A stretch of 64,000 nucleotides of DNA from positions 5,820,552-5,884,551 of the forward strand of contig OX419342.1 in NCBI GenBank assembly GCA_948470475.1, written 5' to 3'. The position numbers and the translations under genes were made by a program. Below, one piece after another: positions 15,844 to 47,770 of the stretch (position 1 is the stretch's first letter; each line of letters starts with the position of its first letter). The DNA comes from Galaxea fascicularis (Eukaryota > Cnidaria > Anthozoa > Scleractinia > Euphylliidae). Under the pieces are notes generated by a model. The model was not told where the DNA came from. It was given only the letters and a program-made list of their open reading frames with translations, and did no database searches.

Positions 15844-18384
15844 TCAAACACATCCGTACTCATACCAAACTGAAGACTTCTTCCCTTCTGTGTCGTTTGG
15901 CCCCACTGATCTCGCCCGTGACCTCTCCTCAGCGGTTGACCTTCGACCTGAAGCTGTGGAGCCAGTTTCCGACGAAGCGGGCGAATCCACGAATATTTCT
16001 TTCTCTTTGCCCGCTTTCTTCGCTTTGTTACGCACTTTCCTCAGAGCCGGCGAACAATCTCGGCTTTGTTGTGACGACACAGAGCACGCGTCATCATCAT
16101 CATCTTCACCGGCATGCGCCTGCGATGTACGTGGTGGAGACTGTTGTTCTATTTCAAGGCTGCGCGCGCGCACACCAGAAACGGCCTGCTTCGAGGTGTC
16201 TGGAACTATCGCTGCGGTAACTCGCAATTTAGTCTTGTTCCTGTTCTCGTCTCTCTGTTCGCTTAAAGACGGTTTCAGTTCCACCGGATTGGAGAATGCA
16301 CCGTTCCGCGACCTTGAGGTGTTGCCGTGACGCGGAGTTGAAGTATCTGCGCTAGAAGCATTGCGTGACGCTGAACCTGAAGAGGGCGGAGTTGGGACAC
16401 TGTTGGACAACGGAGTGTACGATTGAGACGTTTGATCACGAGGTGTTGCTGCTAAATCACGTGACGGTGGCGTGTTTGATGACGACATCACGTGTTCATC
16501 TCCACGTTTATCTCGAACTACTGCGTAAACCGTGGAAGAGCTAACATCCAGTCGGTTTCCAAGAGAAACAGCCGAGACCGAACTCGGCTTTACTTCCGTG
16601 GGGTCGACATACAATGAGGTTCCCACTCCTGAAGTGACCCCCGGAAGAGGTTCACTTCTAGCTACATTTCCAGAAGTGACGTAATGAGCTGTTACCGGAA
16701 CACTTTGTCGGGGAAAAGATGATGCTACAAAGAGTGTTCCTTGGCGCTGGGAAGCTCTAAGTCCATCATTTCTGTCGGCGCTAAAGCTCCTCACGTGAAC
16801 TTGACCCGTTTGAGCATTGTCCAGTCTGGGAGCGTCCTTCCCCTGAATTACCCGTAGACCACTATTCCTATCACCACTAAGGCTTCTTTCCCGTGAATGG
16901 GCCGGACCCATTTGCCTACTGTCACGAACTGGGCCCTCTTTGGTGTGAGGACCATCATTTCTATTTCCACTGGAGCTCCTTTCTCGTATGTGTTGAGCAT
17001 TATTCCGAGAGGGCTCTGAGCCCACTCTGAGTCCACTATTTCTATCACCACTCAAACTTCTCCCCCGTGAATGGACAGAGGCCGTATGTCTGCTTTCAAG
17101 AGGACCATCATTTTTGTTTCCACTAGAGCTCCTCTCTCTTGTGTGCTGAACGTTATTCCGAGAGGGCTCCGTGCTCTCTTCAGTAAAGCTCTCTCGGGGA
17201 GTGGATGAAGTGGGTTGATCGTGTCTTTCATCGGTAGCACTGCGTTGTCTCTCCTGACTAACAGGGGTCGACTCGGAAACATCCTCATTCAACCGTTGAG
17301 ATTGAACACTACTTACCACGTCTCCCACGGGAATTCTCTTCCACTGATCGTCCTGAGAAGACAATGAAACCATAGCCGTAGACCGCGACAGAGTGGCACT
17401 GGCAGTATTAGTATTCGCTGAAGACACAATCTGCACTGAAACTTTAGGTATGGATGGATCCAGGGCTCGTTCTCGCACGGGCACAGTATCTAGATTATGG
17501 CCGTAGTAGCTCGGAATGCTTGCCCGCCGCGAGCTGCTTGGAGGTGAAAATGTGTTTGTATTCTCCTTCCTGCTCAGAACAGGAGAATGTTTAGGGCTCC
17601 GGACAGTTGGTCTCTCGTCGATCTTTCTTGCAAGAATAGGAGACGAGCGAGGACTGGCTGACCTCCTCGAAGAGGTCGGCGACGGAGGCGAGGGTGGCAG
17701 AGTATCCGTGGAGATCGGGTACTCCTTTTTTGGTGGGACTGGGGAAATGTTTGGGCTGCTTTGCGCCCAAAGAGGCTTCCTTAACCCCCTTGGAGAAGCC
17801 TTGGGACTAACGTGCTTCATCAGTCCTTGTGTTTTGGTTCTTGGCAGTGTTCCACTCATGTCGCCATCGCCTGATAATGCATCACCGGGCGTAAGAGTCG
17901 ACTGGTTGCTGGACACTTTGTCTAACGAATCCATGCTCCGCGGCCGCCCTAGCCGACCGGGCGACCAGTCATTTTCGGTGTATATTGCGGAGCGAACTTG
18001 CCGCTTTCGGAAAGCTGAAACATCGTGCGTGGTGGAGCGGTCGCGCCGGGAATCTACGTCGTCACGTCGCAACAGGACTGGCGTGCTGACGTACGGTGAT
18101 ATGACTCCGTCTCTCTGGCGCCTGAGGATGACATCCGACTGAGCACTAATCAGACTTGAATTTAACAAACTTTTTGTAGCCGGCCTAGAGTCCCCGGATG
18201 TGGAACTTTCCCGTGACCCTTCGCTTCCGGTTTCTTCTCGTCTGTTGATGGGTGTGGCCACGAGCGTAGCCCCATCTTGGCTGAATACCGAGTTACTCGT
18301 TTCAAACTCTTCAAGGTAGGGGGTTTGGTCCATTCTAAGGAGTTGCACATTGTTACCCTTGCCTCTAGGACTTTCTTCTTTTTT
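15844..18384 (-). CDS. CCDC88C: Daple-like exon 57: serine-rich tail with PDZ ligand
   Basis: One exon of 2541 nt encodes the last 846 residues. The acceptor at 18385 gives phase 0 after exon 56 and the sequence continues KKEESPRGKGNN. The tail is disordered by composition: rich in Ser, Pro, Arg and Asp, with many SP and RxxS sites (SPRSSPILARK, SPKHSPVLSRK, RRASIPSYYG). Internal repeats lie at 16780-17180. Near the end are a short Asp run and a basic stretch (RKVRNKAKKAGKEKE), then VWYEYGCV-stop with the Daple PDZ ligand (YGCV codons at 15847-15858). The G-protein-activating motif of vertebrate Girdin/Daple is not obvious to me. Long open frames on the opposite strand are shadows of this biased composition. 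Confidence 0.88.
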   Translation of the reverse strand, partial: KKEESPRGKGNNVQLLRMDQTPYLEEFETSNSVFSQDGATLVATPINRREETGSEGSRESSTSGDSRPATKSLLNSSLISAQSDVILRRQRDGVISPYVSTPVLLRRDDVDSRRDRSTTHDVSAFRKRQVRSAIYTENDWSPGRLGRPRSMDSLDKVSSNQSTLTPGDALSGDGDMSGTLPRTKTQGLMKHVSPKASPRGLRKPLWAQSSPNISPVPPKKEYPISTDTLPPSPPSPTSSRRSASPRSSPILARKIDERPTVRSPKHSPVLSRKENTNTFSPPSSSRRASIPSYYGHNLDTVPVRERALDPSIPKVSVQIVSSANTNTASATLSRSTAMVSLSSQDDQWKRIPVGDVVSSVQSQRLNEDVSESTPVSQERQRSATDERHDQPTSSTPRESFTEESTEPSRNNVQHTRERSSSGNKNDGPLESRHTASVHSRGRSLSGDRNSGLRVGSEPSRNNAQHIRERSSSGNRNDGPHTKEGPVRDSRQMGPAHSRERSLSGDRNSGLRVIQGKDAPRLDNAQTGQVHVRSFSADRNDGLRASQRQGTLFVASSFPRQSVPVTAHYVTSGNVARSEPLPGVTSGVGTSLYVDPTEVKPSSVSAVSLGNRLDVSSSTVYAVVRDKRGDEHVMSSSNTPPSRDLAATPRDQTSQSYTPLSNSVPTPPSSGSASRNASSADTSTPRHGNTSRSRNGAFSNPVELKPSLSEQRDENRNKTKLRVTAAIVPDTSKQAVSGVRARSLEIEQQSPPRTSQAHAGEDDDDDACSVSSQQSRDCSPALRKVRNKAKKAGKEKEIFVDSPASSETGSTASGRRSTAEERSRARSVGPNDTEGKKSSVWYEYGCV

Positions 18385-21300: not shown

Positions 21301-23063
21301 AAAACCATCCTCAGTTGTAATGTAGCTTTTGTAATACCGAATACCAGTGGACTCTATGACACAAATATCGGCACTAATCACCTGTTTCTCCAGCATTCTT
21401 ATTTCCTCGTGGAGTTCTGCCACTCGTTTATCTGCGATGGCCAACATCTCTAGAGTATTCTGTCCAGACCTGTCACAGAGAAGAATTCTTAAAATTTCAA
21501 TGAATCAACTAAGACCCCTGCAAGCAAGCCCTCGCGAAAGATTTATTTCCGGCACGAGCGGCGTGCGAAACGAGCCGCGAGAGGACCGGGGGCGGTGGAT
21601 TAGCACAAGTGTCGCCAGTTACTCCATCTGTCGACCTGCCCAATATTTCATCTCCTCATGAATTGAGACGTCTGTGGAGTGACGTAAACAGTCATTTGCT
21701 GCGTTACCCGCATAGAATTAAGATACCTGCACGTGCAAGTTGCCACGCGACTGTGCAGACAAAACATACAACCTAAGTCCGCCTCATATTTATGGCGTAC
21801 CTTGTGTTGTCTGCTGGTTTGAATATTATGGTCTGGGAGGAGCTGCCTTTCTGTTTTTGAGCCTTCTCCTTTTCAGCTTTCTTGTCGTAGGACTCGAGCA
21901 TCTGTAAGTAGAGATAAAATGTAATGTAAAACCCAAGCACATAATCACAGAAACCGTGTCTGAAGAGCCGGATCGTTTAATACTTGATACTGGAAATGGT
22001 TTCTGTAAACAGAAAGGCCTTTGTTTTTGTCTTAAAAATTTGGTCAATCAATCAAATTCACTTGAAACATGAGAAGTTTCATAACTTCGTTTCATAGCAT
22101 CGTTTTCTTGCTGTTGAAGGATCTTTCAACAACGCGACCTGACTAGAAAGAAGTAAAGTTCCTTCTTTCTTACCTCTGTTAGCTTTTGCTGTTCTTTAGA
22201 AGAGGCCTCCAACCTGAGAGAAGTACAATGCGATGAGACCAGTCAAAACATAAACTTATAACTGTTCATTAGATGTCACTCATTCTCTCATTTTTGTTTT
22301 TACAACAGACCAACCTTTGTTCAAGTGTTTTTAATTTGTCGTCCTTCAGCTCAGCCGCATGTGTCATCTTGTTATTTTGATGGACAGCCTCCTCCAGCCT
22401 CGTTTTCAGACTGCGAACCTGGTCTTCTTTATGCTCCAGCGAGCGAGTTAGTTTGTTAGCCTGGGCAGTGACTTCCTCTAATCTGTGCGAAAAGGGGAAA
22501 GTTCAAGCAAAACCTTAATTCACAAACGAAACAAGAGAAGACTGTTTTACTCGATACCCAAACACGCAAAAGTGGTTATAAAAATTAAACGAGACGCAGC
22601 TGAATTTTTTCTTATGTTGGAATCGTTCATGAGTGTTGATAGAGTGGTTTTCAATTTGAGTGTCTTAAAACCAACAAAGTAATTACTCTGACCAATCGCA
22701 ACACGTGCAAACAGCGCAGTGAGCCAATAAGAATGCAAAGCCAGTACATGTTAGTGGCGCAAAGCGCGAGAAAATACGCACGTTCAAGCCGCGATTAAAG
22801 TCGCGATTGGTTTTGGTTTTGCTTCTCATTGGTTGAAAAAGTGCCGCGAGTTTTGCTGGCCAATCAGAGACCGAAGTAAAGCGAAACCAAAACAAACGTA
22901 ATTTACTTTCCGCACTCAATAGGAAACCACTTTATTTAGAGAGGGAGGTCAGACGTAGAGACGAAGGGCTAATGCTCGAAACGTCAGCTTTTAGAGTCCC
23001 TGTACGGTGGTCAATTTACATTTATCAACTCTGTTGATAATACCAAATTTTTGTGACCACTTC

Positions 23064-23099
<36 letters not shown>

Positions 23100-26000
23100 C
23101 CCCCTTTATCTTTTCATAACTTACTTTGCTTCGATGGCCATATTTTCGCTCTCCTGCTGCTGTAAATTCTGAGATAACAGACCAATTTTGCTGTCTTTCT
23201 GCTTTAGAGCCAAGCTGAGTGACTGGCTGTTGTCATCTCGACTCACTTCCATTTCAGCCACACTAAAGGTTAAGAGAAAAAAATAACAGAAAGTAAATGC
23301 GAGTTGCAGTGCTGACACTAGGTTTTAGATCCTGGGCCCCTCAGCTTCAAAATGTCAGGGGCTCAGGCGCGCGTTTCTCGAAACTGCCGAAACTTTTCGG
23401 GCCTATTTCGGGTGCCACAATTTTCTACATATATTAAAAACGAAGACGTTTCCAGGCATGAAATTTCGCAACAAATTTCCCGTTTCGTATCTTGAAATCA
23501 TTGTAAAAGACCAGCTTTTTAGAATAAGCGGATCGCAGTTTTAGAAATAGCTTTTCGGACCCGAAAAGTCTTCGGGACTTTCGGGAAACGGGCCCCTCGC
23601 CCTGTGTTTGGGCGCCCTACCAACTTTTTATGCGTATACACGCACGATTTGTGTGTAAACGCGAACACTGCATGGCGAGTTGTACATGTTTAAACTGTGT
23701 TCACGCAATTTCAACGACAGAGGGTTTGTAGCTAGGGATGAAATATTTTTCTAATACCGTTTCTCCAAGCCCTCGATCTTCACTTCTTTCTGTGTAAGAT
23801 TGTGGTTCAGTCTCCTGTTTTGGCTTTCTTTTTCTTCCAGCCTGCAAGCGAGAAAATACAGCATCGGCATATTTCTTCCAAGTACGTTACGAAACAAGGT
23901 GTCGAGGAAAGTGAATATGAGTGTGAATGTATGAAACCACAAATTAATTAATTAAAATGTAAGTGATCATGGCAGTTGTGACTGAACGCTGCTCGAGCAG
24001 TAATGAAAATAAACTTAAGCCTGAAAAAAATCAGGCTTGTGCCGGAACGTGAAAAAAACGAAAACAACATATTTCAGATTTGCAAAAGGTGTCAATGCCG
24101 TTGATCAATATCACGTAGCGTAATCTTCTCACTGGTCACCAATAGTTGAGGGAATTTGTATCTTTGATGATCAGTTTCTCTATTCTCATGACCTGCATCT
24201 TTAATCAACTTGTAATATCGCAAGGAGAATTTAACATTGATAGTTACTGCAAGTTGAAAGTGTTCTTGGCATATTACCTGGTCTCCAGGCTCAACACAGT
24301 CTGTTCCATTTCCTTTTTGGCCTTTTCTAACTTATCGACCTGCCCAAAGGTGCTTGACAGATCCTTCACCCTGATGAAGAGTAAAAAGAAAAAAGCCCTT
24401 AACTATTCAAGTTGTACCACACAAAACTACAGTCTAATGCCTGTTGTTTTCATGCCCCTTGAGCAAAAGTCCATTATTGCGTGGTATACATGCATCGCTT
24501 TAAATTTGTAACTAGAATCCTGTGACTTTTGCAACGAGACAGAATAATTTCGTAAACCTCAGTTCACATAGTCTCTCTCTAAGCTTCTTCACCACTGAGG
24601 TTTTCTTTCTGCTTTAACTTTCTTTTTCCATTCATAATTTGTCTGATTGCCTTCCGTACAGTGAGCAAGTTTTAAAACTGGGCGATATTACACGATCGTA
24701 GTGGATTTTTATCAAAGCAGGAGGATTGCAAGTCATACTTCTGTTCCATTTCTGCTATTTTGATGTCTTTTTCTTGCAATGAGCTATTGAGCTTGGAATC
24801 TGCTGATGCGGCGTTTCTCAAGTTGTCCAAACTGCAAAGAAGAAGAAAAAATAGCACCGACGCATTGTGAACAACTTCAACTTTTTTTCCTTATGGAGAA
24901 TGAAGCCATCATTTAGCTTGCAGTTCTATCATGCACCTTTCAAACTATCTTCATTACAAAAAAAAAAAAATCCGGGTGTGGCTCCTTATTCGTACCTCCA
25001 TCCACTTCTGACACCTTAAACTGTCAAACGAATCCTTTTTAGGTGAATGTGAATAAATAAAATGATATATTTGAACTGTGGTTTAAAGAAAAAACGATTT
25101 TTGAAAGCAGTCCTTTTAAACTTGTTTCAGTGTAAGATGAGATAGAATACGTCCACTGACTAACCGTTTTTGTAGCTCTGAGAGCTTGTCGTCTTTGCCT
25201 TCCAAGCTGGTTTCGAGTTCTTTCACCCTGGTCTTGTACTCTGCTAATCTTTCAGTTTTTGTTTCAAGCGACTTTTCCAACTCCTCTTCCCTGAAATGCA
25301 AAATTAAAAGTCAAATATTAAAAACGCATGAATCACTGCAAGACTCTCCAGAATCAAGTGACAAGCAAAGGTAACGCCATCTTGTAGCAAGTCTCACGCA
25401 ACAGAAACATCTTGTTATCAGAAAAGAGCATGTCTGTAACATGGCTTTTCACGACCTCAACTTGATACTGAGGCAAGGACATCACGAAAATGTGGTGGTG
25501 AATCACACAAGGGTGTCTCACAGCAAAGTTGAAAACGTCAGTGATACTGTCACAGTTGTACGACATCAACACATGCAATTCACGACAAATCTAGCTATAT
25601 ATAAGCTTGATGCAAAGTTAAGCCCGCCAGAGAATTTCACGAAACAGTGCCATACTACTACACAACGAATCACATACGATCTGCTTAACTTATTTCAGTT
25701 TTTTTTTTTTGGTACCTTGACTCGTTAGCTTGAAGTGTTTTCTCCAAAGTGCGAATGCTCTCTTCTTTCTTACGCACCGACTGGTCGAGTTTGTTATTTA
25801 GATTGAGCGTCTCATCAAGTCTGTGGAAAAGAAGGTTTTGTGTTGCAGCCATTGACAATTACATTATAAATATGTGGGAAGTTTGCGTTTGTATTTTAAC
25901 CCAGAAGGCAACATTTCCCGAAAAGAGGTATGGGTGGTTCAAGCATGGGGGGAGGGAGGGGGACGGGGGGAGGGGGTGTGGGGGAGAGGGGAGTGGAGTT

Positions 26001-29000
26001 AAGCAGTTGTGTGAACAAGGAAGAATTGATGTTGTTTTATCTCAAGTCTAAAGTAACGCATTACCTTTTTTGAAGAGTGTCGATTTTGTCGTCTTTAGCA
26101 TTTACATCAGCTTGCTGGCTTGCAACTTGACTTTCCAAATTCTCAAGTCTGAAGAACAAGTAAAGGAAAGAGAAACGATAAACGACACTCTCAGAACACT
26201 TAAGGTAGATATGATCTCGCTTTTTACCATAAAGCTAGCATCGACTTAGTTTAAAATTCTGTTGAAAGGCATACACGGGCTGATGATTTCTGCGGAAGAC
26301 ACTAGGATGGACAAGAAATGCAAACAATTCTTTGACGTATTAGATGCAGATAAAGGTTGGTTGTAATTAGTATTGTAAGTGTTTCTCGACTTACTTGCTT
26401 TCTAAGTTCTCTATTCTAGCATCTTTAGTCTTCATTATGTGGTTGAGTTTCTTTATTTCACGGGTGCCTTCTTGAGCCTCAATAAGCCTAAATGACGAAA
26501 CAAAACAATAAAAATTTAGGGAATCAAGAAAATAGCCTGTATTAACAACCAGCATAGAACATAAAGGAGCTAATGAATGAACCCTGAGGTGTAATCATTG
26601 AAATAAAAGCAGCATTTTTCTGTGGTGTTGTTATGATCTTGTATTAGGTATAGTTCTGGCTTCTGAGATGAAATTGGAAAATGTATCTCTGCAATGAAAG
26701 CTACTGAGCATTACTAAACTATACAGGGTTGTCAAGGGCCGGGGGTTGGGGATTTTCCCGTCGTATTTTGAGGTATATCCCCGGCTACTTTGATATAAAA
26801 CCAGCATGTTGACTTCACTTCAGCAACTCAAAACCCCGGCTATTTTTCGCATATCCCCATCTACTTCAAAAATTAGTGACAGCCCTGCTGTGGCACTGTT
26901 TTTGTGCGGGCACAAGATGGTTCTAACTTTTGAACTGGTCATTCAGATGAAAGCTACCGAGCAATACTTTCCTGTGGTGCTGTTTAGCGTAATTTAAAAG
27001 GTGGTTCTAACTTCTAACTACGTCTGGATTAAATATGAATATTTCGTCTGACTTACTTAGCTTGCAGCTCGGCTATAGTCATCTCTTTTTCCCCAACTGT
27101 CATGTCCAGCTTTCTGTACCTACTGACAGTACCTTCCAATCTGAAGCAAGTGCGGAACAAGTCAAATCATTTTTAAAAGCAGAATTAAAAAGTGGGAGAA
27201 ACTTTCAATATGCCACGAGTACCAATCTTACTTTGTTTGCAAGTCGTGGATTTTAACCTCTCTTTCCTCCACATACTCTTCCAACCTATTGATCAAGGGT
27301 AAATAAACTGCCATTAAATCTCTTGTACCTGGTTAGGTTTAGGTGAGGGGTAGGTGCCAGTTGACCAGATACTGACATTAATCCAATCAGTTATTGAGCA
27401 ACAGTGGACCTACCCTTCCCCTAACCCAACAGTAGCACTAACTTATTAACTTATTTTAAATTGTTAGGTTTGGGGAGGGGTAGGTGCCAGTTGGCCAGAT
27501 ACTGACATTAATCCAATCAGTTATTGAGCAATATCGGCCCTCGGTCTTTTTGGTACGGACCTCGCTACGCTCTGTCCGTACTGTCAATACCTCGGGCCGA
27601 TATTCTCCCAGTATGGCCCTCGCGCTTGGTCAATAAGATATCTTTATTTTTGTCCTGGCGGACGGTCCATGCATTCACTCTTATTTTAACCTCTCTACAA
27701 CGGTCACCTCTCCAAAACGGCAATGGCCACTAAAGCGCTTCCCGCCTGCCAAACTAACCTCTCCACAACGGCCAGATAATCAAGGACAGTGTATTCAAAA
27801 GCTCCATTTTTCAATTTAATAGATCTTGTTGACTGAGGGAACGAATTCACAAATGAGCTACTCGAGGTACCTGACGAGGCGACGAAGACATCATTGCCGA
27901 GGAAGACGAAGCTGATGCAAATTGATGAACTTACTTTTACCTTGTTTTGTTTTGTTAACATTCTTCTTCTAAACATTTTTTTTGGTTTCTGTTTTATTGA
28001 TGTGTTTTGATCGTATTTATATGCTACAATCAGCATCTTTTTTTTTTTTCAATAAAAATGTCCTCACCCCCAAAACAAACAGGTGTCATATTACACCCCT
28101 CCCCGGCTCCCTATAACGGCCACCCTCCTCTGTCCCCAAGGCAGCCGTTATAGAGAGGTTTAACTGTATAAAATTTATAAAGGCTTAATCGGAGGCCTTA
28201 AAAACTTACCTGGAACCCTGAAGATACGTGTTAAACGCTATCATCACGGAGGGTTAAGGGTAAGGGGAAAACAGAAATTGAGAACAAAGGAGGAACGACA
28301 AGATACTCGGAAAAAAGCAAAACGAATGCATGCTACGACTGGAGGGAGCCTTTGATTCTCCGAGGAAAAACGTTAAACACCCTACTCATTCACATAGTCT
28401 CAGAGGGTGATGTAAGGGGGGGGGGGCTTTTGGTGAGCAAAATGATTGTAGGATCAGTGAAACGTACCAATAGAAGTTACATTTCTCTTCTGCACCTGCT
28501 GCGCCTAACCTCACCCAGCACAGCGGATCCCTCCAAAGACGTGATCGAGCCTCAGCAAAGAGGCTAAATACCTGTTCAAAGTTTGTTTGTTTGCCCTTGG
28601 AAAAATCGCAATTGATATTCTAGGAGCACGTGGCGGACGAAAAGAGATGTCTACGCACGTTGAATGTCAGCAAAACATTAACACCAAAAAAGCCGATAAC
28701 GTTAGCAAGCTTACGCTGTTTCGAGCACTGGTCACCTTGACCTTTTTACCATATTTTACAAATCCGGGTTTTTACAATACATTTTTCCTTCCCTGAATAT
28801 TTCAAGATGGCGAGAGTCAACTATAAACCCATTTCACCCAGCTGCGCCTTCAGACGTTTACACATCCAAAATAAATTTAACAAGCGCTCAACTTACAAGT
28901 TTTACACTAATCACGTAGAACTCACTGAAATGATAAAAAGAAAAATTCAGGAAAGCTAAGTGGAGCGTAGACGACGGTTTCAATATAGAAAGCCGGATTA

Positions 29001-32000
29001 AGTCAATAACATCAAGCTGTTTATTTTACGATTAGTTGTTACGAAAAAAAATGTTAGGTTTGTTAGAATAGTTATTAACTTAGTTTTTATATAAGCGGCC
29101 ATAGATTAGAAAAGAGTGTGGTTCTTACTGTATTAGACAAAGCCCTGAATGTTTAGATTGGCATTGTTGTTGGCTAAGCAAAGATTGAAAGCCGTTGCTT
29201 TAGACAGGAGCGTATTGTTTGCAGCGATGGTTGACTTACTTCGTTCTTCGCCTTTCCAAGTCTATAATCTTATCTTCCCTTCTTTTAACGCTGTTTTGCC
29301 GCTGCACCCGTTTACTGGTTTGCTCCTCCAAGCTGCAAATAAACTTGATAAGTCAAATTTCCCGACTGCTGCCATCAAGACAGCGGATAGGCTGCTATAC
29401 AAAATACACTTCCCAGAGGTAGATGCATGAATCACAATGTCAGAATTTAGTGGTCTTTCTCAGTAGCACCGCAGACAAACGATGATAAATTGAAAACTCC
29501 AGAAGCCTTAATTTTCTTCAATAGTCATAGCTGAGTAAGTTACGATAACAACAGACCGCCTGTCTTGCGAAAGATTGACATAGTAATTTGCGAACCGAGA
29601 TGGACATACTTGTTTTCGCTTTTGCGCAACTAGTGTTGAAATAACATGCTGAAATTTATGGTTAGCGCCAGAACTTTGGCAAAAGCATCCTACTGACAGA
29701 GGCAGCATAAATTATGGCCAAAATCGCCCGAGCGAACTTCACCAACACGAGGAGCGATATGCCACGGGTAACATGCATAAATGTGTTAGGGAAAAAATTC
29801 AACTCCAAACTAAAGATAAAATAACTTGTTTCCAGGATTATTGCACTCGGAAACAATAACAATAGAGGTATAAGCTACTTAGTTGACTTCAAATTCGCAA
29901 TGTTAACAGCCGAACACAGGCCTGTACATTTATTAGCTTACAAAATGAACGATTGTGGTTAGAGTTCTTAAATTATTTTTTATCTCCCTATTTAAGGCAC
30001 TTTAATTAATCATGGAGTTGTTAATAAATTATACATTGATTAAACTATTAACAGATTAGTTACTTAGAGCCTTCTGGGTTAGCAGAAGCAAGGTATTTTA
30101 GTATTCAAACTATCTACCTGACTTCATAGAGAAAAAAGTTTTGTCAGAAACGTCTGTTTTTCTGATCTTACAGAGCATGTCGCAAACACAAATACGGACT
30201 AAATACTCTGGCCAATCACAAGAGGCTTAAACAGTGCACGAACCAATCAGAATACGCCATATTCGTATTCTCGGTATTGAACTGGATCTAGAATGAAGTG
30301 GAGGCTCTTGCGTTCAAAACCGAGAATACGAATATGGCCTATTTAAAGCAAGTAAATGAGTCGGCGCCAAGCGCGGGAAAATGCATGCAGGTAGGTCACG
30401 ATTGGTGTCGGGTTTTCATTGGTTGATAAAGTGGCGCGAGTTTTGCAAACCAATCACCGAGCAAAGTACAGCAAACCCAAAGCAAACGAGAATACCTCGC
30501 TCTAATGCACAATCAACAACGCGCAGATAGTTCCCTCTCTAGAATGCATCGACACAGGGACGGCTTTCATGATAGCATTTAAAACTGAACGTACCTCTTT
30601 TCCAGGATCTTGATTCGCTCTTCATTTCTCAGTTTCTCCTCTCTGCGTTCTTTCTCTTTGTTATCAAGTTCATCTTGCAGTTCACCGACCCTGTTAACAG
30701 TCACACAACAAGCAGACATTCAATCTATCTTTCAAAACCTTTATCGCCAACAAATTTTCAATTTGTAGTATTAAATATAAAGCTAACCTGGATTCTAAGC
30801 TTTCAATTTTCTCCTCTTTGCTCTTAACAGTCTGACTAAGTTTGGTGTTGATGTTAACAGCATCTTCCACTTCGTCAAGCCTGGAAAGAATGTTGGTAAG
30901 AAATGTTGGTAAACCACCAAAGGGGAGGGTCGCGGGGAACACGGTAGGGATTCCTGTGCATCACTGTTAACTACGCAACCGTGCCTCCAACCATACACCT
31001 TTTCCCTTGCGTACTGATTTAACTACACACGTCCAAGCTATAAATGCGAGTTTGTCAACACTAAAACATCGTGGAGATAGCTGGCAAGGAAAGAAACTAC
31101 TTCACCGTTGACAAATTCCTCCACTACAAGTTGTAATTCCCAAAATAAGTTTCTCGTCGATCTAGTTTCCTATGGAAAGGCACTTACGACATAATGAGTA
31201 CATATTTAGAACGGTTTTCAATTTCGAAAGTAAATTGAGTTTGCTTTGGTTTTGCATTTCTTCGCTCTGTGATTGGCCAGCAAAACTCGCGTCACTTTTT
31301 CAACCAATGAGAAGCAAAATCAAAACCAATCACGACTTGCACGCGCGCATTTTCCCGCGCTTGTCCCCAGCTACATGAAATTGCTTCGCATTCTGATTGG
31401 TTCTTTGGACTGTTTGCGCCTGTTGTGATTGGTCAGAGTAATTACTCCATTGAAGACCACTCTAATCCCACACCGCACACACACATACACCTGTTGAATT
31501 TCTAGATGGTTTCTAGATGGCTGAGTTACCTTTCTTGAAGTCTATTTATCTTGTTGTCCTTCTGCTTGACATACTCTGTGAGCTTACTGTTTCGCGAAGT
31601 CAGTTCTTCAAATTCGTCCAACCTAAATGACACATTAAGCGTAAAACCAAACATGCCAATTCAACGTAATTTTGGATAAAATTGTATTTCATCTCGTCTA
31701 GCAGTTCGTCTCGAAATGCAAAACAATTCTGAACAAATGGCGGCATCGATCTCGGATACAAACATGACTGTCTCAAAACAAAAATTAAAAATAATGTTCT
31801 ACTTTTGAGGACTATTACACCACTAGTGCACAGAAAAAAGTATCAGCTATTTTCGGATGCCAGAACGGAATAGGATCAGGGCATGGGAAAACTGGCAAAA
31901 ACCCTCATGGTCTTCACATTCGTAATGGCAAAAACTGAGTAAAGATTACAAGTTTAAGAAATCACATAACATGTTCTTCTCGGTGCTCTACAAATAACAT

Positions 32001-35000
32001 GATTGCCCTGGGACCTCTTTATCTCATGCAGGTTTGACTACGAAGCTATAACGTTCTCTTCACAAGGCTTCTGCAATAGTATGCTTACAAAATGGTGCAG
32101 CAACTGACATGATGCGTTCTTACTTATTTTCCAGAGTTTTGATCTTCTCGTCTTTGAGCTGAACAGTCTGGTTCAGCTTTTTGGTCTCGGACACCAGCTC
32201 ATCTAAAGTTGCGACGCTAGGAAATTCAAAATAAAGACGGCATTACTACCATAATTTGTTGCTGCATGTTAAACACAAAAAGTATGATAAGTGACGGGTG
32301 AGTGTAGTCCTGAGAACTGGACCGTTTGTGGTGAAGTTGATTGACGTTTTGACAGCCTAAGCGGAAGTCATCATCAGAGTCAAGTGATTTGTGTAACGTC
32401 AGTAGATGGTACAAATACTCTGATCATTGATCTGATTGGCAAACAAAGTCGTGATCTCATTGGTTGTCTGTCGGTTGAACCGTCATGTGATTGACTGTGA
32501 AGACATGTAAAATGGCAAACCTTTCTTCCAAAGTAGTTATCTTCTGTTCCTTTATCTTCAGACTGTGCATCAGTTTGTGATTGCCAGCTTGCGCATCCTC
32601 CAACCTGTTGCAAACAAAATCAGTTATCAGTTACCTTTGCTATTTGTGAGCGGAGACGGACTGTACTTTTTGTTCAACAGATTTATTGGTACCAATTAAA
32701 AGTAAAGTAAATTAAAAAAGTAAAAATCAAAAGTTTTACAAAGTTTGGTGAACAAAAGAGAAATCGAACCAAATCAATATCAGAGGGTAAACATTAGCGG
32801 ATCAGTCAGATTGACTATACATTCACAATGTTGATACACAAATTAATGGCACAAGAAGAATAAAAAATAGCAATCACGAAAAAGAGGATGCGTTACCTGC
32901 TCTCCAGTTCAGCAAGCTTCTCTTCTCTTTCCTGAATTATCTGATTCATTGAAGAAACCTTTTCATCCTTTTGTTTCAGATTCTGCTGTAAAAGATGCGC
33001 TGACCCTAACGACTCTTCAAGCTCTAGGACTCTGAAAATAGAAAAAAAACAAACAATAACGAAAGACCCGGAAAGTGAAAAAAACACTGACCAAAAACTT
33101 ACGGTGACGCAAGTTAGACTGCGTTGATTGGAAGCTGTATCGATTTACGACCCTATTAGCCAACGCACGTTGACGGAATTCAATTTCTATTAGCAACGAG
33201 AGTTTCCTTGCAAACACAGACATTTTCCACCGTTTGAGCACTAAAAGAAATTCAACACTGAAAACAAGAATTCCTTTTCATATTCAGCATTAACACAATT
33301 GTGAACATACTTGTTTTCAAGCGATCTTATTTTTCCATTTTTCTGTTCAATGCTGAGCTGCTGCCTTTGGTTGTCGCTCGACATTTCTTCCAGTCTGTGG
33401 ATTCAAGAAGAATTTTGCTTTTACAAAAACAGTCCGCCAAAGCAAAGTCTTATAAAACGTGGGGCAAAAAATGTGACTTACTTTGTCTCCAAATCCAAGA
33501 CTTTCTTCGTTTTATGATCCAAACTTTGGCTCAATCTGTTCTTCTCAGAAGTCACACTTCCAATGTCTTCGACCCTGTAAAACATGAAACGACAAATTAG
33601 CTAGCTTTTCGCTCCATCCTTGGATCTTTTCTGACTAATTGCGGGTACAACTGCTCTCTTACTGCGTTTCAAGGTCTGTAATTTTCTCCTCTTTGATTTT
33701 CAAACTCTGCTGGAGTTTGGTGTTCGCGAGTGTGGCATCCTCCAACCTGAGAACAAAACAAACAGCACTTAAGTTTAAACTCTTCAATTCCCAGTATCAA
33801 CATGCATATTCGCCTTACAGTTCTCTCATATTTCGTATGTTTTATGTAGAGAGAATTTGTATAAACAACTCAACTGATTCCTGGTGATCATTTCCGGTAT
33901 TCTCAAACCCAGTATCACTGAAGAACTGGTGATGTGGTAATGAATAACGCTCAACCCCCCCCTTTTTTTCTTGATTTTTTGGGGCACCCCCCCCCTCACC
34001 CTCCAATCCCATAAAAATGTATAGGTCCTAAAATGAAACGAAAACTGCCCCCTAGCTTGACTGACACTGTAGGAAAAACTCCACTTTAGGTAAACCAGCA
34101 GAAAATAAACAAAAGCTTCATTCAGTGGACAGGACACCGAGATTAAAGACTGGATAGGTTCAGCTGAGGCAAAAGGAAGAGCTCATACAATCAAATTGAA
34201 TTTTACGGCTCAAGTAACACATGAGCAAGCTTAACTGGCATTATTCTCTTTATTGTAGTGACACAGTACACTGCACCTGCTTTCCAGTTCAATAATTCTG
34301 TTGTCTTTTCCTTCCGCATTCCTTTTCATCTCCGTGATTCGATCATCTCTCTGCACTGTACTTGTAGTTTCCACCTCAGCAAGACTACATGCCAAGACAA
34401 AGTAATCAGTAAAGCTGGCAGCCTCATGATGACAAAACTCAACCGCAAATTCTACTCCTCAACTTCCTAAAAGAACCAATTCTTTTAGGGAACTTGGAAT
34501 TGTTTCTCCTTAAGTTCTTTCTCGAACTTGAACTAACGTATTTCACTTTGACAGTGAAAATAAAATGACGCAAAATTTAAATTCTTTCGTGAGCTCGTTT
34601 CTACTGATATCACACTGATAGTCTAAATATTTGTAATAGTCGTTGTGCAGCCAATGAATAGTTAAACTCACAAGCTGCCTCTTTAGGCCTCTTCTGCGTC
34701 TTCTTCACTAGAGACCCAGACGCCTGATCCCTCACGAACATGCCAGTAAAAAATCCCCAATTTAAAATCACATAACGACATTCAGTAACGCAAACATACC
34801 TGCTTTCCAGTGCTTCAATCTTCATATCCTTCAGTTTCACTACATGTTCAAGCTTTTTAGTCTCCACCTTTGATTCTTCCAACCTGTCACAAAGATATGA
34901 CATTCGTAGCTAGCATTCTACATCAGTTCAAGCAATCCAAACACAAATCCGATGCATTCTGATAAACGATAGGAATGCAATCTAAATGTGCAATCCACAA

Positions 35001-38000
35001 TGCAATCCCAAAGCAGCACAAATGCAATCCCATATCGAGTCTGAGTGCAACATACCTGCTTTCCAAGTCTTGTAGCAGTTTGTCCTTTTCATCAAAGCTT
35101 TTGTTCAACGTTTCTATCTTTTCTTCTTTTTCCCTTACAACTTGCTTGATTTTCTCGCTTTCGTCCAGAGCTTCGGTGAGTTCTTCTATCCTGAAAATAG
35201 TCAGAACTTTGAACTGAATTTCAGGATAATCAGCGATTTGGATATCCGAATTAGTGTTTATGCATTTTGTAAAGCTCTTAGGGAATCAAAATTTGCTAGC
35301 AATTCAGTAACAGAGGTAGACAAAATGGAGGATTCATTTCTAACTTTATGAATTTATCACAATAATTCTAAAATCAGCATAATTAAGAAACAGAGGATGG
35401 TCTTTGAGTTTCAATTTTCAGTCACTTGCTTTCACATTTGTTAAACAAGGTCTACACAAGTATGTGCCAATGGCATGAAGAGGGAATAAGCCTAATTGGT
35501 AGAGATGAACCTTAAGTTTTCTTAAATTATTGCAGAGGACACAACGGTGTCATTTCATTAATTACCTAATTACCTTCTTTCTAAGTTTCTGTTTTCTTTC
35601 TCCTTGTCTTTGAGGTTCTTGTTAAGAGCTTCTGAACTCTCGTCAAGAGATAACATTAACTCCTCGACTCTACAAAAGAAGAAAAGTATATTCGTGTGCG
35701 TTGGACATAGAACAAAAGATACCCAACAAGGCTAGGCGTAGCTGGCCACAATTATCCTTCATCCAACGAGGGACAGTGAAATTATTTTGTTTTCGTTAAA
35801 AAAAAAACATTAAGAAATGTCCCTAGGCCTTGCTGACTTGAATTTACGAGAATGACCAGAGAAGCTCCAATGGCCTGGAATTCTCGGGTGAGATGAACGT
35901 GAGCATTATCGACCTGTTTCATCGTTTACCTTCCAAGAACTGATTAACATGTAACTTCTCCTCATAAGTTCAATATTCTATTACGCGAGCAGGTGATGAG
36001 AATTAACAAATTTATCATTTGGAGGGTCCTTTTTTGATATAACACCAAATTCTCTAAACAAGGTAATATGTGGCAGACTGAAGGCAGAATTGCTAATCAT
36101 ATCTTGGGAGTTAATATTAATACTTAATCGGGTTTCGAACTATCCGCTCATCTACAAACCTTTTCTGTAGAGACTGGACTTTCTGTTCTTTGAATTTCAA
36201 CTCTTCTGAGAGTCTGTCATTGTCGTCTCTAATTTTCTCGAGACTGGGGAAACGAAAAACGTTAAACAATTATGTTAATAGTCCGGCATAAATTGCACGA
36301 ACAAAATGCATCTATATGAAGGAACCGCCTTGTGCAGTCAGAAACCAGAGCGGCCGGGACATAAATAGTCCGTGCTGGCTCGTGGAAATAAAATTCAAGG
36401 AGTATTCAAGAGGTGCTCAGGCACCAAAAACTGAGTTCTGAAGGAATATTCAACGCAAGTTTACTTTGTCTCGCATCGTCCCCGATTATAAAATCTGCGC
36501 TCAATCCTTGAATTACTTTGATATAATCCTGCGGTATCATTTCTCATCCGAACAAAAATTCAAGGAGTTTTCATTATTCTCAAGCACTTTTAGCAGAACT
36601 GAATCCTTCTTTTCAAGGGCTTTTCAAGTGCCCTTGAAATCTAAAATTAAATTCCAAGGATTTCAAGGACTTCAAGGAGTAACACGAACCCTGGCATACC
36701 CTCAAGGGATACCAAGCTGTGACCTTGTTAAGCCAGAAAAAGTCATTTATTTTTGGGGGGGGGGGGGGAAACACGCGGGCACGCGAGGAATTAACCCCTA
36801 AGAGAAACGCGAAAACTACTCGTAGTCTAGACTTCTGTCGGGGAATGATTTTAATCTGAACACTTTTATGTTTGTGGCACTTCACTTAAACTTAACTTAT
36901 TTGCGTCATGTTGGTCGCGTCGACTACAAGTCCAGTTTCGAGTTTCGAGTTCACCAAGACTGCTGAATAAATATTCTAAGGACGACAAAAATGCTAAGAA
37001 TTTGTCTCCAGTCTGATCAAATGATCGAATTTTCATTCAAACGCTGTCAAAAGTAAAAGTCCCACTACTTAAAAATGCTTGTGCGTTATACCATCGCATT
37101 AACATACGTTTCAAAGCCTTTCAATAGTTCAGTTACGTAGTACTTTACAGCCACGTGAAGGCCTTCATCTTACCCGTTTTTCAGTTCGTGTAATTCTTTC
37201 TCCTTCTTCCTAAGATTCTCGTCTGTTCTGTTCTTCTGATTTACTGTTTCTTCAACTCTTTAAGATAACAAAGCCAAGAAAAATTAAGTTATAAAACAAG
37301 ATGTCTATGAACAAGAAACCCATGGGGCTTGTGTTACTACGCTTCCCAGTTGAGCGCGACACCACGCAAGTTTCACACAATGTTTTGACGTCAAAACTTT
37401 GCGAGGAACCTTGCGTGGTGTCGCGCTTAACTGGGAAGCGCAGTATCACACGTGAAGCCTTCGGATGTTTGTCGTAATTGAGGACGTAACAAGAGTCAAA
37501 AGGATGAATGGTCTCTTGCATTTGCCAAGCTACGTAACTAATCTTAATATCAGCACGTATATTCTCCAAACTGTACTCCATACAATTTCTATGGCGATGA
37601 TAGGGAGAATTTGTAGAACGATCGAGACCTTTGCTATTTGTTGATCACTTCCTTTTTTCTCACAACCTTTATGTTTGATTAAGGAGTGTTACTGTAAGGA
37701 GAAATAAAGTATTGGTCACCTGATTTCAAGTTCGTTTATTTCATCCTCTTTCCTTCTCAGGTGTTCTTCCGATTTTTTATTTTGAGATAAGAAATCTTCG
37801 ATTCTGAAAATAAAACAAAAAAGTCATACTGAGTGCGTCGGTTTAAAGGGACATCACCCATAGCTTTTGTCGTAGCTTAAGCCTTGAGGCATAATGGGCA
37901 GAGCTCTTATTAAGGGCAGAAGATTATCTTCAGATATTTTGAGTTGGATCCACCCCCAACTACTCTGATACAAAAAACCGTTACAGCTCTGAACGTCTCA

Positions 38001-40578
38001 GTTTATGAAGAACCATTTGCTATAAAAAATAAACGGGCTTCATCATCAGTAAACAAGAAAGCGAAGAGTACCCAAAACTGAAAATTATACTCACTTGTTC
38101 TCCAGCTCGGTGTTTGCTTTTCTTTGTTTTCTCAAAACTTCTTCCGCTTGGCTCTGTTCTTCTGTTGCCTCCGCTAGTCTGCCGGTTCAAACACGAATGA
38201 GTGAAGTTACAACACTCTTATAACTGTAACGACTTTTAGTGTATTTTCACATTTTCATAACACCAAGCATTCAGCGAGAACAATCGCAGTTATCAAAGAA
38301 TGAGGAAATTGTTAACGCTCTCCAAATGTGTTCATGGTATACTCCATAAATATCCCTACCACTTACCGTTTTTCCAAAGTCTGTAACCGTCTGTCTTTGG
38401 CCTCAAGGTTTTCTTTCAATTCCCCGATGGTTTCTTCCCGATCTTTGACCTTCTGATTTATCTTTGCAATAGCGTCTTCCTTCTCTTTTACGAGCTCGTT
38501 TAATTCACTGATTTCTTTCTTTCTCTCCCGCACTTCTAAGTTCAAATCCGCAAGCTTCTCCTCCTTCGACTGGGCGGCCTTCGTTAGCTCTGCAATATTT
38601 TCGTCTTTGGCCTCTGCTTGCTTTGCCAGGTTAGTAATTTCTTGCTCGTTTTCCTTCGCTCGTTGATAAAGTTCCATAACATTGGACTCCCTTTCCTCTG
38701 CGAGCCGGCTGAGTTCTGTTATTTTCTCCTGTTTCAGCTCAGCGTCTTGGCTCAACTCCGTGATTTTTGCTTTTTTTTCTTTCAGCTCCTCCACCATACA
38801 ACCTAGATCGTGCATCTTTTCCTCGGAGAGTTGGAAATGACTGAAGAAAAACATGAACAAGTCATAGTTAAATTGAATTTCTCCGGACCACAAATCTGAA
38901 TGGAGCAAGAAGTATTCTTCATATCGCGCCGCCGTTCCGCCTCAACAAATGGATGCTTGTTCATCACAACATACCCACACGAAGTGACTGAGAGTATTAC
39001 TACTCACCCCTGGATGGGATGCTTTTATATCACAGCCGGGATACCCAGAGGGACGTGGCTGGGGGAATACTACTCCACCCTTGCTTGAATGCAGTGACTA
39101 GGACTAAAGTATTGCTACTCCCTCTGGATAAACCACAGGAAACCCAACATGGCATGACACAGAGTACTGTGATTCCTCCCAGGATGGAATGCTTATCCAT
39201 CACAGAATTCTCAACATGAAGTGATAGAATTACTATGTACTTATATCTCGTTACAATATTAACAGGAAAACATATGATTATAAATCAGAATACAAGAACA
39301 AGTTGAAGCCTAACCCCACTACCCCTAGCTGATTGACAAAAACTTACAGCAAGCTCTGTTCTTCAATCTGCGCTATTTCTTCTCCCTTCTCTCTCAGCTC
39401 TCCCGACAAGTTAAGCACGTTATCCGCAGAGGTTTGCAGTTCCTCATTCTGTTTCTTCACGATGGCTCGTAATTTGTTCAAGTCGTTATCTTGTTGTAGT
39501 CCCTTTGCCTTCAGTTTGGCCACATCCTGGGCGAAACCAGAACAAAACACGAGAAATATTCACTTGATTATCAAAAATACAGCAGTTTTCAATAGAGCGT
39601 CAAAAGTAATTCGCGTTTACTTTGGGTTTACTTTACTTTGTTCTGGGATTGATTGATAAAACTGGATTCGTACCACCCAACTAAAAGCAAAATTGGACGT
39701 ACTCTTTAAAACAGACAGGCGGCCTCGTACCTCAGTTAGATTGTACACTGTATTCTTCCCTTCCATGGCGGTCTTTTGCAGTTGCTCATTTTCAGCTTCC
39801 AATTCAATGATTCTCTGACTTGAGTGCTTAAGCTCTTCAATCGTTTTCCTCAGCTGCTGGTTTTCTCTCTGCATCCGAAGAACTTCAATGGAGCTGGAAA
39901 AAAGCATCCCCAGCAGAGATTAATTATATTTCTTTCCCTATCTCTCTAGGCCCAGTTATTCAAAAGCCTGCGAGCGTCACTCGTTAAGTATACTTAAGAA
40001 AAGAACTTAGATCAAAGTAAATAAAAATTCCAGTCACGACTTACCAAGTTCACAATAACCCAGGATTACCTGCTATTTAAAAACTCAGTTATTCCACAAG
40101 TGCACGTTAGTTATGAGATGACAGGGAGCCGACGAGGCGTGTTGCGCTGAGTTCGCTACTATCATCTCACACCTTTCAAGCGCGAGTGGAATAATTGTTT
40201 TTCTTTTAAAAAACACCCACAACTTCTGATAGATGAATCTTCCCACTTTATTGTAGAACATGGTTTGCTCACATACTATGATGCTTAAGCCAATCAAAAC
40301 TCTAGAATTGCATTATCCAGTGACCTAGCTTTTATAAAGAACAATTACACCACAACAGAACATACGTGTGTCGAAAATGTTATGTGCTCAGAAGCCATTT
40401 TGCCCTCAACCCTATCTTCTTCTACAGCTGCAGACGAGAGAAAAACACACCGAGAGAAAAACGAGGATATTTCTCAATTTGCAGTTGATGATAACTAACC
40501 TGGATTCACTGAATTCACTTGCAAACGTTGAGGAGCCTGGAAAAGAATGCGTTGATAACGATGACGATAATGCTATTG

Positions 40579-47000: not shown

Positions 47001-47770
47001 AGCCCTAATCAGTTTATTCAAATGACTTCAACAGGGCTTGAACCCGTGGCCTTGCAATCCCGGTGCGATGCTCTATCAACTGAGCTATGAAGCCACTGAT
47101 GTTGGGAGCAGGTCAATTTGGGGTTCATATGTTCCTGTGAAAGATATGTAAGTGAATGGTGCATATGAAAGAAATCATAATTATGTGAACTGCGGATATG
47201 AATATTTTTTCAGGCTTCCTTATACAATTGTAAAAATTGCGATCATAACTGCAACAATTATTCTTCATTTGATTTCATATCCGCAGTTCACATATGATTT
47301 CTTTCATATGCACCATTCACTTACATATCTTTCACGGGAACATATGAACCCAAAACTGACCTGCTCCCAATGTCAGTGGCTTCATAGCTCAGTTGATAGA
47401 GCATCGAGCATCAGACTGGAATCACAAGGTCTGAACTTTTTTCAGGCTTCTTTACGCAATTGTAAAAATTGCCATCATAACTGTGATGATCATTCTTCAT
47501 TTGATTCCATATCCGCAGTTCACATATGATTTCTTTCATATACACCATTCAATCAGTTTATTACTGACCTGCACGGCACATCCCAGCATTAATAGAAGGA
47601 TTTTGTTCAATTCTTCTGCTGCTTCATCTGCAGAATTGACATAAAAATATGAGAATCTGCTGTAGATTATGTGTGCTCCTGGTTCATTCACTTCAGTGGT
47701 AATGATAGTGACAAAAAAATTATTTTCATCATAACTTATAATCAAAATAATGATGATAATGATTATGACA

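Follow-up and report, generated by a model that had tools for sequence, protein, structure and literature searches.

A 64,000-nucleotide stretch of the genome of the stony coral Galaxea fascicularis (contig OX419342.1, positions 5,820,552 to 5,884,551; the whole stretch is referred to as the window) harbors on its minus strand a complete gene whose sequence identifies it as a CCDC88 gene of the Daple/Girdin type, in which 29 successive exons, all of phase 2-2, run from position 38178 to position 22315 and encode variants of one coiled-coil module. Our reading is that these frame-neutral exons encode a spacer rod of fixed length in cnidarian CCDC88, and that one of them, E18, would form a hinge that splicing includes in some transcripts and omits from others; we hold it tentatively, at slightly under an even chance. 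A bolder version, in which the array would be a Daple ruler common to the whole phylum, built of 29 modules on the cnidarian stem and then frozen, give or take a few residues, for more than half a billion years, with E18 as a hinge under the control of splicing and phosphorylation that determines how far the rod extends from dynein to the junctional polarity complexes, is in our opinion rather unlikely.

The array was delimited with two exon models: a homology-free exon chain, based on splice-site and coiled-coil composition scores over the region 44700-18900, whose thresholds were relaxed since a stricter setting missed five array exons, and a hand-checked gene model. Both underlie the numbering of the exons as E01 to E29, from 38178 to 22315 (Table 1). 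The two models agree, and reproduce what had been proposed from the letters alone (the sequence-only reading), i.e. 29 phase 2-2 exons of which eleven measure 84 and eight 93 nucleotides; its suggestion of a Daple/CCDC88 gene using one module 29 times is supported as well. The other exons are two of 96, two of 135 and one each of 54, 105, 108, 126, 138 and 168 nucleotides, giving a total of 2829 nucleotides or 943 amino acids (residues 715-1657 of the protein). Introns 18 to 48 of the gene, 31 in succession, are of phase 2 throughout, while the remaining 25 comprise 14 of phase 0, 3 of phase 1 and 8 of phase 2. Tandem Repeats Finder detected no array at the DNA level, because the module DNA is too diverged, and no profile in a Pfam scan of the coral protein names the array; PF05622 (HOOK coiled coil) covers part of it with 38.6 bits (cut-off 35) on a 569-residue piece, and stays below the cut-off in Oculina.

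Right-aligning 28 of the 29 modules (E19 is too short) places the core, or a/d, positions at 2, 5, 9, 12, 16, 19, 23 and 26, with the pattern L-x-N-L-L-K-I-L. Positions 2, 12, 16, 23 and 26 are hydrophobic in 23, 20, 23, 25 and 26 of the 28 modules, respectively, Asn is the commonest residue at position 9 (9/28), and core position 19 is governed by Lys (22/28). The autocorrelation of the array has its maxima at 28 and 31 residues. Taken modulo 7, the module residue counts are 0 in 14 exons, 3 in ten, 4 in four and 1 in one, so 28 of the 29 lengths are 0, 3 or 4 (binomial P 8e-10, assuming equally likely residue classes), which, together with the phase 2-2 of all 29 exons, is the pattern of an exon-duplication array. 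Offsets of 3 and 4 residues are the stammers and stutters that coiled coils tolerate. With lengths of this kind and a multiple of three nucleotides, exon size therefore keeps the reading frame and, approximately, the heptad register. Paralogous modules share on average 23% identity and adjacent pairs (23%) are no closer than remote ones; for this reason recent duplication or gene conversion was dropped as an explanation, despite the 68% identity between E09 and E13. We infer exon duplication as such from the exon structure of this one gene.

The exon ahead of the array, E00, is intron-free and consists of nine 14-residue (two-heptad) repeats and a partial one, with a lag-14 score of 1.59 against a mean of 0.69 and a maximum of 1.21 in 1000 shuffles. 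It encodes 158 amino acids in the window, Oculina and Montipora, and 81 aligned ones in Actinia; it is apparently a second, coral-specific lengthening of the same rod.

Concerning the length of the rod, it was defined as the distance between two anchor profiles (A and B) built from ten cnidarian-type proteins, namely that of the window and nine orthologues, from Oculina, Montipora, Actinia, Rhopilema, Clytia and Hydra together with P0004, P0005 and P0023, the last three classed as medusozoan-type by similarity only. Both anchors were found in 231/231 non-cnidarian proteins, a set made up mainly of vertebrate proteins and amphioxus isoforms, not independent of each other, with a few of undeclared species and no sponge, placozoan or ctenophore. 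The rod measures 1160-1326 residues in 10/10 cnidarian-type proteins (1326 in the coral), versus a median of 827 and a maximum of 877 in the 231 others, four of which show shorter anchor distances (473, 478, 478 and 727). The sequence-only reading had expected a rod several hundred residues longer than that of vertebrates, with the family coiled coil resuming on both sides, and had named a single human stretch of the module type, LKKSLEIKEEKIAALEAR; the excess is about 500 residues between shared anchors, those flanking anchors are the ones matched in all 231 proteins, and the stretch is found as given, in human girdin isoform X2 (P0223, residue 964). The same array in bilaterians, which that reading had named as a point that would speak against expansion, is not seen, as 0/231 non-cnidarian proteins have a rod of more than 877 residues. 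Since the net gain is only about 499 residues from an array of 943, the array partly replaces the bilaterian central rod and is not a simple insert.

The module content differs as well. A profile trained on the 28 window modules (without E19), and tested on hand-chosen proteins (17 of the 231 non-cnidarian and five of the nine cnidarian-type ones), yields 17-25 matches in the five cnidarian-type rods and 0-5 (median 2) in the 17 bilaterian rods, register-preserving shuffles of two cnidarian rods giving 0.4-0.5 matches on average. The motif K[ED].K[IVLM]..LE occurs 2-7 times per rod in the ten cnidarian-type proteins, once in 203/231 of the others and not at all in 28/231; in most cases the single non-cnidarian copy keeps a fixed spacing to the N-side anchor, and it falls at E15 in nine jointly aligned proteins. 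Bilaterian rods thus hold one clear and a few degenerate module units.

Statements across species concern the encoded protein, exon boundaries having been read in the coral gene alone; the proteins come from the best 120 of 892 and the best 120 of 904 matches, in a database that collapses isoforms more than 90% identical and may thereby conceal isoform variety. Among the nine cnidarian-type proteins of the profile search, eight are rows of the query alignment and only Hydra is additional. The encoded modules are retained in 9/9 cnidarian-type orthologues retrieved. The Oculina and Montipora models have 28/29 modules at identical lengths, with mean identities of 83% and 81%, E18 alone being absent. 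Fourteen modules (E07, E09 to E17, E21, E23, E27 and E29) have the same length in all ten proteins, and most of the remaining ones differ in only a few proteins of the ten-protein alignment. As a result of summing E07 to E29, 754 residues are obtained in the window, Rhopilema and P0023, 753 in P0005, 752 in P0004, 750 in Clytia and 741 in Hydra; the sum is 723 in Oculina and Montipora without E18 (754 minus 31) and 690 in Actinia without E18 and E26. This is maintained at a mean module identity to the window of 28-32% in the three named medusozoans, and anthozoan and medusozoan-type modules score 1.22 on average when compared in order, versus 0.60-0.79 when shifted by one to three places. The Actinia protein (P0003, an X2 model) has no counterpart of E26 (24370-24278) and keeps its frame intact, which would correspond either to exon loss or to a further skipped exon.

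P0005 and P0023, of 2274 and 2235 amino acids with the modules included, are encoded by contigs no longer than 7313 and 7429 bases, respectively. The coral gene spans 41 kilobases, wholly inside the window, and these contigs of about 7.4 kilobases are for that reason probably transcripts, with the whole array spliced in. Transcripts omitting most of the exons had been named beforehand as a contrary outcome; both contigs encode the full-length protein with its modules. Because modules next to each other resemble one another no more than remote ones do, and order and most lengths are kept, the duplication era would have been mostly over before the sampled cnidarians split. The array is thus old and largely frozen in cnidarians, rather than expanding in the coral lineage. 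Of the lineage-specific expansion first proposed, the lengthening is real, but it is not specific to corals, being common to 9/9 cnidarian-type orthologues and of near-constant length over most of the array.

Three protein models, those of Oculina, Montipora and Actinia, all of them labelled isoform X2, lack E18; a counterpart of it, 39-42% identical to the window, is present in Rhopilema, Clytia, Hydra, P0004, P0005 and P0023. The motif [KQ]RQxS[IVL]xRR[ED] is present in 7/10 cnidarian-type proteins (the window and those six) and in 0/231 non-cnidarian ones. The alignment-free distance from an E16 to an E20 motif, both of which are matched in five of the ten proteins, comes to 107 in three of them (the window, Clytia and P0005) and to 76 in the other two (Oculina and Actinia), the difference being E18. 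The two introns that flank the exon, of 1262 and 1954 nucleotides, exceed all others in the array. E18 has three basic core residues in 7/7 proteins that possess it, the next highest module mean being 1.8, and carries an R-x-x-S serine, which we take to be a basophilic kinase motif; its coil strength in the window lies at the 0.3rd percentile, among the weakest stretches of the rod. As a non-coding leftover would not stay open, spliceable and so conserved, we infer that E18 is a conserved cassette exon, used in some transcripts, which makes it a specific candidate regulatory exon. It should be noted that E18 and E19 together amount to 49 residues (seven heptads) in the window (31+18) and in six medusozoan-type proteins (28+21), the boundary between them having seemingly moved by three residues.

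The mechanism we propose is as follows. The array would have arisen by serial exon duplication ahead of the split of the sampled cnidarians, only those copies being retained that kept the frame and, approximately, the heptad register. In the predicted dimeric rod the array would put an additional 74 nm or so (499 residues of 0.1485 nm each) between the HOOK end and the PDZ-binding end. The HOOK end is predicted to associate with dynein/dynactin in the manner of human Daple, the other end to sit at junction or polarity proteins, and selection would subsequently have held the length of the rod. Inclusion of E18 would weaken the rod locally and create a phosphorylation-sensitive hinge, while its skipping would stiffen the rod and shorten it by about 4.6 nm. 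On the side of the ends, one study describes co-immunoprecipitation of dynein and dynactin with human Daple and Girdin (PMC5533585), and another states that the EYGCV PDZ-binding motif is conserved in invertebrates, that it binds the Dvl and ParD3 PDZ domains and that it localizes the long Girdin isoform to junctions (PMC8042451).

Several points weigh against this reading. Length constraint is not equal to ruler function, since any obligate dimeric coil selects against indels, and both the dimeric cnidarian rod and its location in the cell are predictions. The study on human Daple presents its dynein activation as not conclusive (PMC5533585). Concerning the hinge, the E18 region is only a moderately weak coil (9th-17th percentile) in four medusozoan-type proteins checked, the always-included E17 has an equally charged core (mean 3.3 vs 3.0), and in the window the coil of E08 comes close to it in weakness. 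Constancy is also incomplete: total rod length varies, as Actinia lacks a module beyond E18 (E26) and the stony-coral E00 is 77 residues longer, the lengths of E03-E06 differ between anthozoan and medusozoan-type proteins, Hydra is without about half of E01-E02, Clytia and P0005 have 3 residues fewer over E20-E23, and the distance from E23 to the C-side anchor, 342 in three proteins, is 304, 362 and 363 in three others. In a module-by-module test the best match is the own counterpart for only 9/29 modules (11/29 in reverse), and E02, E03, E05, E11, E22 and E25-E27 come in 11th place or lower in one of the two directions, leaving a one-to-one match unsupported for them, whereas the last place of E18 is an artefact of right-aligning a 31-residue exon with 28-residue ones; one-to-one module orthology is firm for parts of the array only. 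Finally, the stricter motif K[ED][ED]K[IVL]..LE[ASN][RQK][LVI] does not discriminate, with 0-2 copies per cnidarian rod vs 0-1 in the others.

The direction of change could be opposite to that of the bolder version, the array being ancestral to Cnidaria and Bilateria and lost or eroded on the bilaterian stem instead of gained in Cnidaria. The single K[ED].K[IVLM]..LE of 203/231 non-cnidarian rods, placed at E15 in the nine aligned, would fit such erosion, and so would the up to five degenerate module-like segments of these rods, some of them well above shuffles (oyster 19.5 vs a threshold of 8.5); yet 0/231 carry a second copy of the motif or exceed 877 residues in rod length, and a single gain is as simple as a single loss, so that we treat an ancestral array as a real possibility, if an unlikely one. 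An unlikely explanation, too, is that the array is a relic of early chance duplication, now kept only since loss disturbs the register of an obligate dimeric coil, its length having no specific role. The low mean identity of the modules, 23% with neighbours no closer than distant ones, indicates that duplication ended long ago, and the modulo-7 lengths show that structural constraint suffices for retention. However, 14/29 modules (those of 0 modulo 7) could be lost with no change of register, and what is missing is only E18 (three anthozoans), E26 (Actinia) and part of E01-E02 (Hydra), while E07-E29 holds at 750-754 residues in 6/10 proteins.

The limited set of missing modules among the nine orthologues (E18, E26 in Actinia and part of E01-E02 in Hydra), taken from a database in which isoforms above 90% identity are merged and variety may be hidden, also makes improbable a splice-tuned rod, in which symmetrical exons would be skipped in varying sets to yield many lengths, as in a titin-like spring, even if all 29 exons are of phase 2-2 and the three anthozoan X2 models without E18, as well as the Actinia X2 model without E26, are what such a rod would produce. 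It is equally doubtful that the repeated surface matters rather than the length, the modules binding a repeated partner or bundling side by side as an assembly or docking platform. Lys at core position 19 in 22/28 window modules is consistent with it, and the highest peak of charge periodicity lies near 33 residues in the array of the window (power 11.2), Oculina (13.0), Actinia (13.0) and Rhopilema (6.9); but the window peak barely exceeds the maximum of 20 shuffles (9.2), that of Rhopilema lies below it, the peak ranks second in Clytia, and a weak one at 31-32.5 ranks first or second in 3/4 bilaterians. Charge periodicity, only marginally above shuffles, was set aside as main evidence. That the exons are a gene-model artefact, i.e. 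chance open stretches between splice-like sites, deserves next to no credence: the model rests on genomic DNA and related proteins, but its open frame of 2743 amino acids, the repetition of 28/29 modules at identical lengths in the Oculina and Montipora models, and the 39-42% identity of E18 to six medusozoan-type proteins already contradict it.

Under the spacer-rod reading, selection on rod length itself becomes testable in Nematostella, Hydra or Clytia through in-frame removal of whole exons. Most of the array length is held almost to the residue throughout the phylum at about 30% identity, and the comparison gives a discrete difference between cnidarians and bilaterians in a Wnt/polarity scaffold.

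The gene is assigned to CCDC88 because of its HOOK_N match, the CCDC88-type names of its relatives and its C terminus (WYEYGCV). PF19047 HOOK_N scores 42.2 bits (cut-off 23.5) on the protein predicted from exon 4 onward, the HOOK domain of the Oculina orthologue reaches 77.8 bits in a profile scan, and Hook 3 and Hook 1 structures turn up as relatives of the N-terminal domain. Of 21 database matches, 14 are named Daple, girdin or CCDC88 and seven are uncharacterized, hypothetical or without a name; PF19047 is present in 20/21. The nearest proteins are those of the stony corals Oculina patagonica (82% identity) and Montipora foliosa (81%). All 56 introns of the hand-checked model are GT-AG, the joined frame of 2743 amino acids has no internal stop, and the protein ends in VWYEYGCV. 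A HOOK_N search of the coral's own genome gave one match, on another contig, and missed the split HOOK exons of this gene, which makes a paralogue count impossible.

Table 1. Positions in the window of the CCDC88 gene, its array exons and its flanking parts
Feature	Length (nt)	Position	Strand	Basis	Remark
Complete CCDC88 (Daple/Girdin-type) gene		57193 (ATG) to 15844 (stop end)	minus	hand-checked model	57 coding exons, 2743 amino acids
Exons 1-3		57193-57149, 57001-56913, 56694-56583	minus	tblastn with Oculina N terminus	first part of HOOK domain
Exons 4-6		48329-48260, 47627-47569, 46792-46644	minus	PF19047 HOOK_N	remainder of HOOK domain
E00	474	38367..38840	minus	14-residue repeat score	phase 2-2, ahead of array
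E01	84	38095..38178	minus	both exon models	
E02	84	37720..37803	minus	both exon models	
E03	84	37174..37257	minus	both exon models	
E04	84	36160..36243	minus	both exon models	
E05	96	35574..35669	minus	both exon models	
E06	135	35056..35190	minus	both exon models	
E07	84	34800..34883	minus	both exon models	
E08	108	34277..34384	minus	both exon models	sole residue count outside 0/3/4 modulo 7; weak coil
E09	84	33663..33746	minus	both exon models	
E10	93	33482..33574	minus	both exon models	
E11	84	33311..33394	minus	both exon models	
E12	135	32897..33031	minus	both exon models	
E13	84	32521..32604	minus	both exon models	
E14	93	32124..32216	minus	both exon models	
E15	93	31530..31622	minus	both exon models and alignment	bilaterian single stretch aligns here (9/9 jointly aligned proteins)
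E16	93	30788..30880	minus	both exon models	
E17	96	30595..30690	minus	both exon models	charged core; coil weak like E18
E18	93	29240..29332	minus	hand-checked model and orthologue comparison	likely cassette exon; basic core and RxxS site
E19	54	27232..27285	minus	both exon models	
E20	84	27057..27140	minus	both exon models	
E21	93	26395..26487	minus	both exon models	
E22	84	26065..26148	minus	both exon models	
E23	105	25716..25820	minus	both exon models and alignment	best-conserved module, 48-94% identity to nine orthologues
E24	126	25165..25290	minus	both exon models	
E25	93	24739..24831	minus	both exon models	
E26	93	24278..24370	minus	both exon models and alignment	no counterpart in Actinia X2 model
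E27	84	23758..23841	minus	both exon models	
E28	138	23125..23262	minus	both exon models	
E29	168	22315..22482	minus	both exon models	two modules in a single exon
Family coiled coil resuming past array		22213-22174 to 19156-19058	minus	C-side anchor profile	matched in 241/241 proteins
Last exon		15844..18384	minus	hand-checked model	long tail; PDZ-binding motif WYEYGCV at end

In the tails of the 10 cnidarian-type proteins neither the strict GBA pattern (TLEEFL or TLQQFL type) nor the relaxed one was found, the relaxed pattern detecting human girdin and 218/231 of the non-cnidarian proteins; the coral gene is not grouped with the GBA/GEM-motif G-protein activators. A GBA-like tail sequence (NEMMTLEEFLNEAN, SEMVSLEQFLDESN, near the vertebrate SEMVTLEEFLEES) is carried by 8/8 mollusc (P0009, P0010, P0011, P0019, P0020, P0022, P0024 and P0027), 2/2 amphioxus (P0134 and P0135) and 1/1 hemichordate (the acorn worm P0186) proteins examined, and was not found in one sea urchin or in 10/10 cnidarian-type CCDC88 proteins. 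Two papers state that invertebrate CCDC88 is without a GBA motif (PMC8042451, PMC10943482). Since molluscs, amphioxus and a hemichordate carry similar tail sequence, the GBA-like motif may have its origin in early Bilateria. A precomputed Pfam entry, PF28422, is assigned to P0001-P0004, P0023, P0026 and P0190 (several cnidarian-type and one sea urchin CCDC88), and is absent from the Pfam scans of the coral protein and the Oculina orthologue run here.

Elsewhere in the window, the plus strand carries two tandem copies of a D-glutamate cyclase domain (PF07286), one at 3659-4297 (153.8 bits) and the other at 9759-10526 (178.5 bits). They probably extend to 5158 and 12031, respectively, and stand in a tail-to-tail orientation to CCDC88. 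Human DGLUCY presumably lies near CCDC88C on chromosome 14, and on that basis the pairing may be a very old shared neighborhood. Intron 3 of CCDC88 contains, on the same strand (minus, 52222-54273), an open frame of 684 residues in which the reverse transcriptase profile PF00078 scores 80.3 bits, likely a retroelement, and two tRNA-like Rfam matches in CCDC88 introns (47023-47094 and 45111-45183, minus, 47.2 and 35.3 bits) are possibly tRNA-derived repeats.

Compared with the rest of the CCDC88 family (Girdin/GIV, Daple, Gipie and invertebrate CCDC88), the coral gene shares the HOOK domain, the long coil with conserved segments flanking the array, and the EYGCV-type C-terminal PDZ-binding motif; it differs in the 29-module array and the rod about 500 residues longer between the anchors, where 203/231 non-cnidarian rods have one array-type motif, and in a tail without a GBA-like pattern. 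The Hook-type dynein adaptors (HOOK1-3) have the same N-terminal domain family (PF19047) and much shorter rods, and to our knowledge no comparable exon array. The PEVK region of titin, a disordered spring with heavy alternative splicing, is built of 28-residue modules, many of them one per exon; like it, the coral gene has a row of short symmetrical exons, each with a unit of near 28 residues, whose number could set length, but the coral array is a predicted coiled coil and its content is nearly fixed in the available protein models. In fibrillar collagen, arrays of 54-nucleotide exons encode a triple helix with a Gly-X-Y period, and there too the structural period sets exon length, so that duplication preserves frame and fold, whereas the arithmetic of the coral array is that of heptads with 3- and 4-residue offsets. 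No title or abstract opening in our literature search results reports such a CCDC88 array. Symmetrical exons arrayed in step with a structural period are already known in kind (titin PEVK, collagen), while a coiled-coil rod lengthened by repeated exons that obey two arithmetic rules at once (a multiple of three nucleotides, and 0, 3 or 4 residues modulo 7), in a polarity scaffold and held across a phylum, is, as far as published titles and abstract openings show, a new variant.

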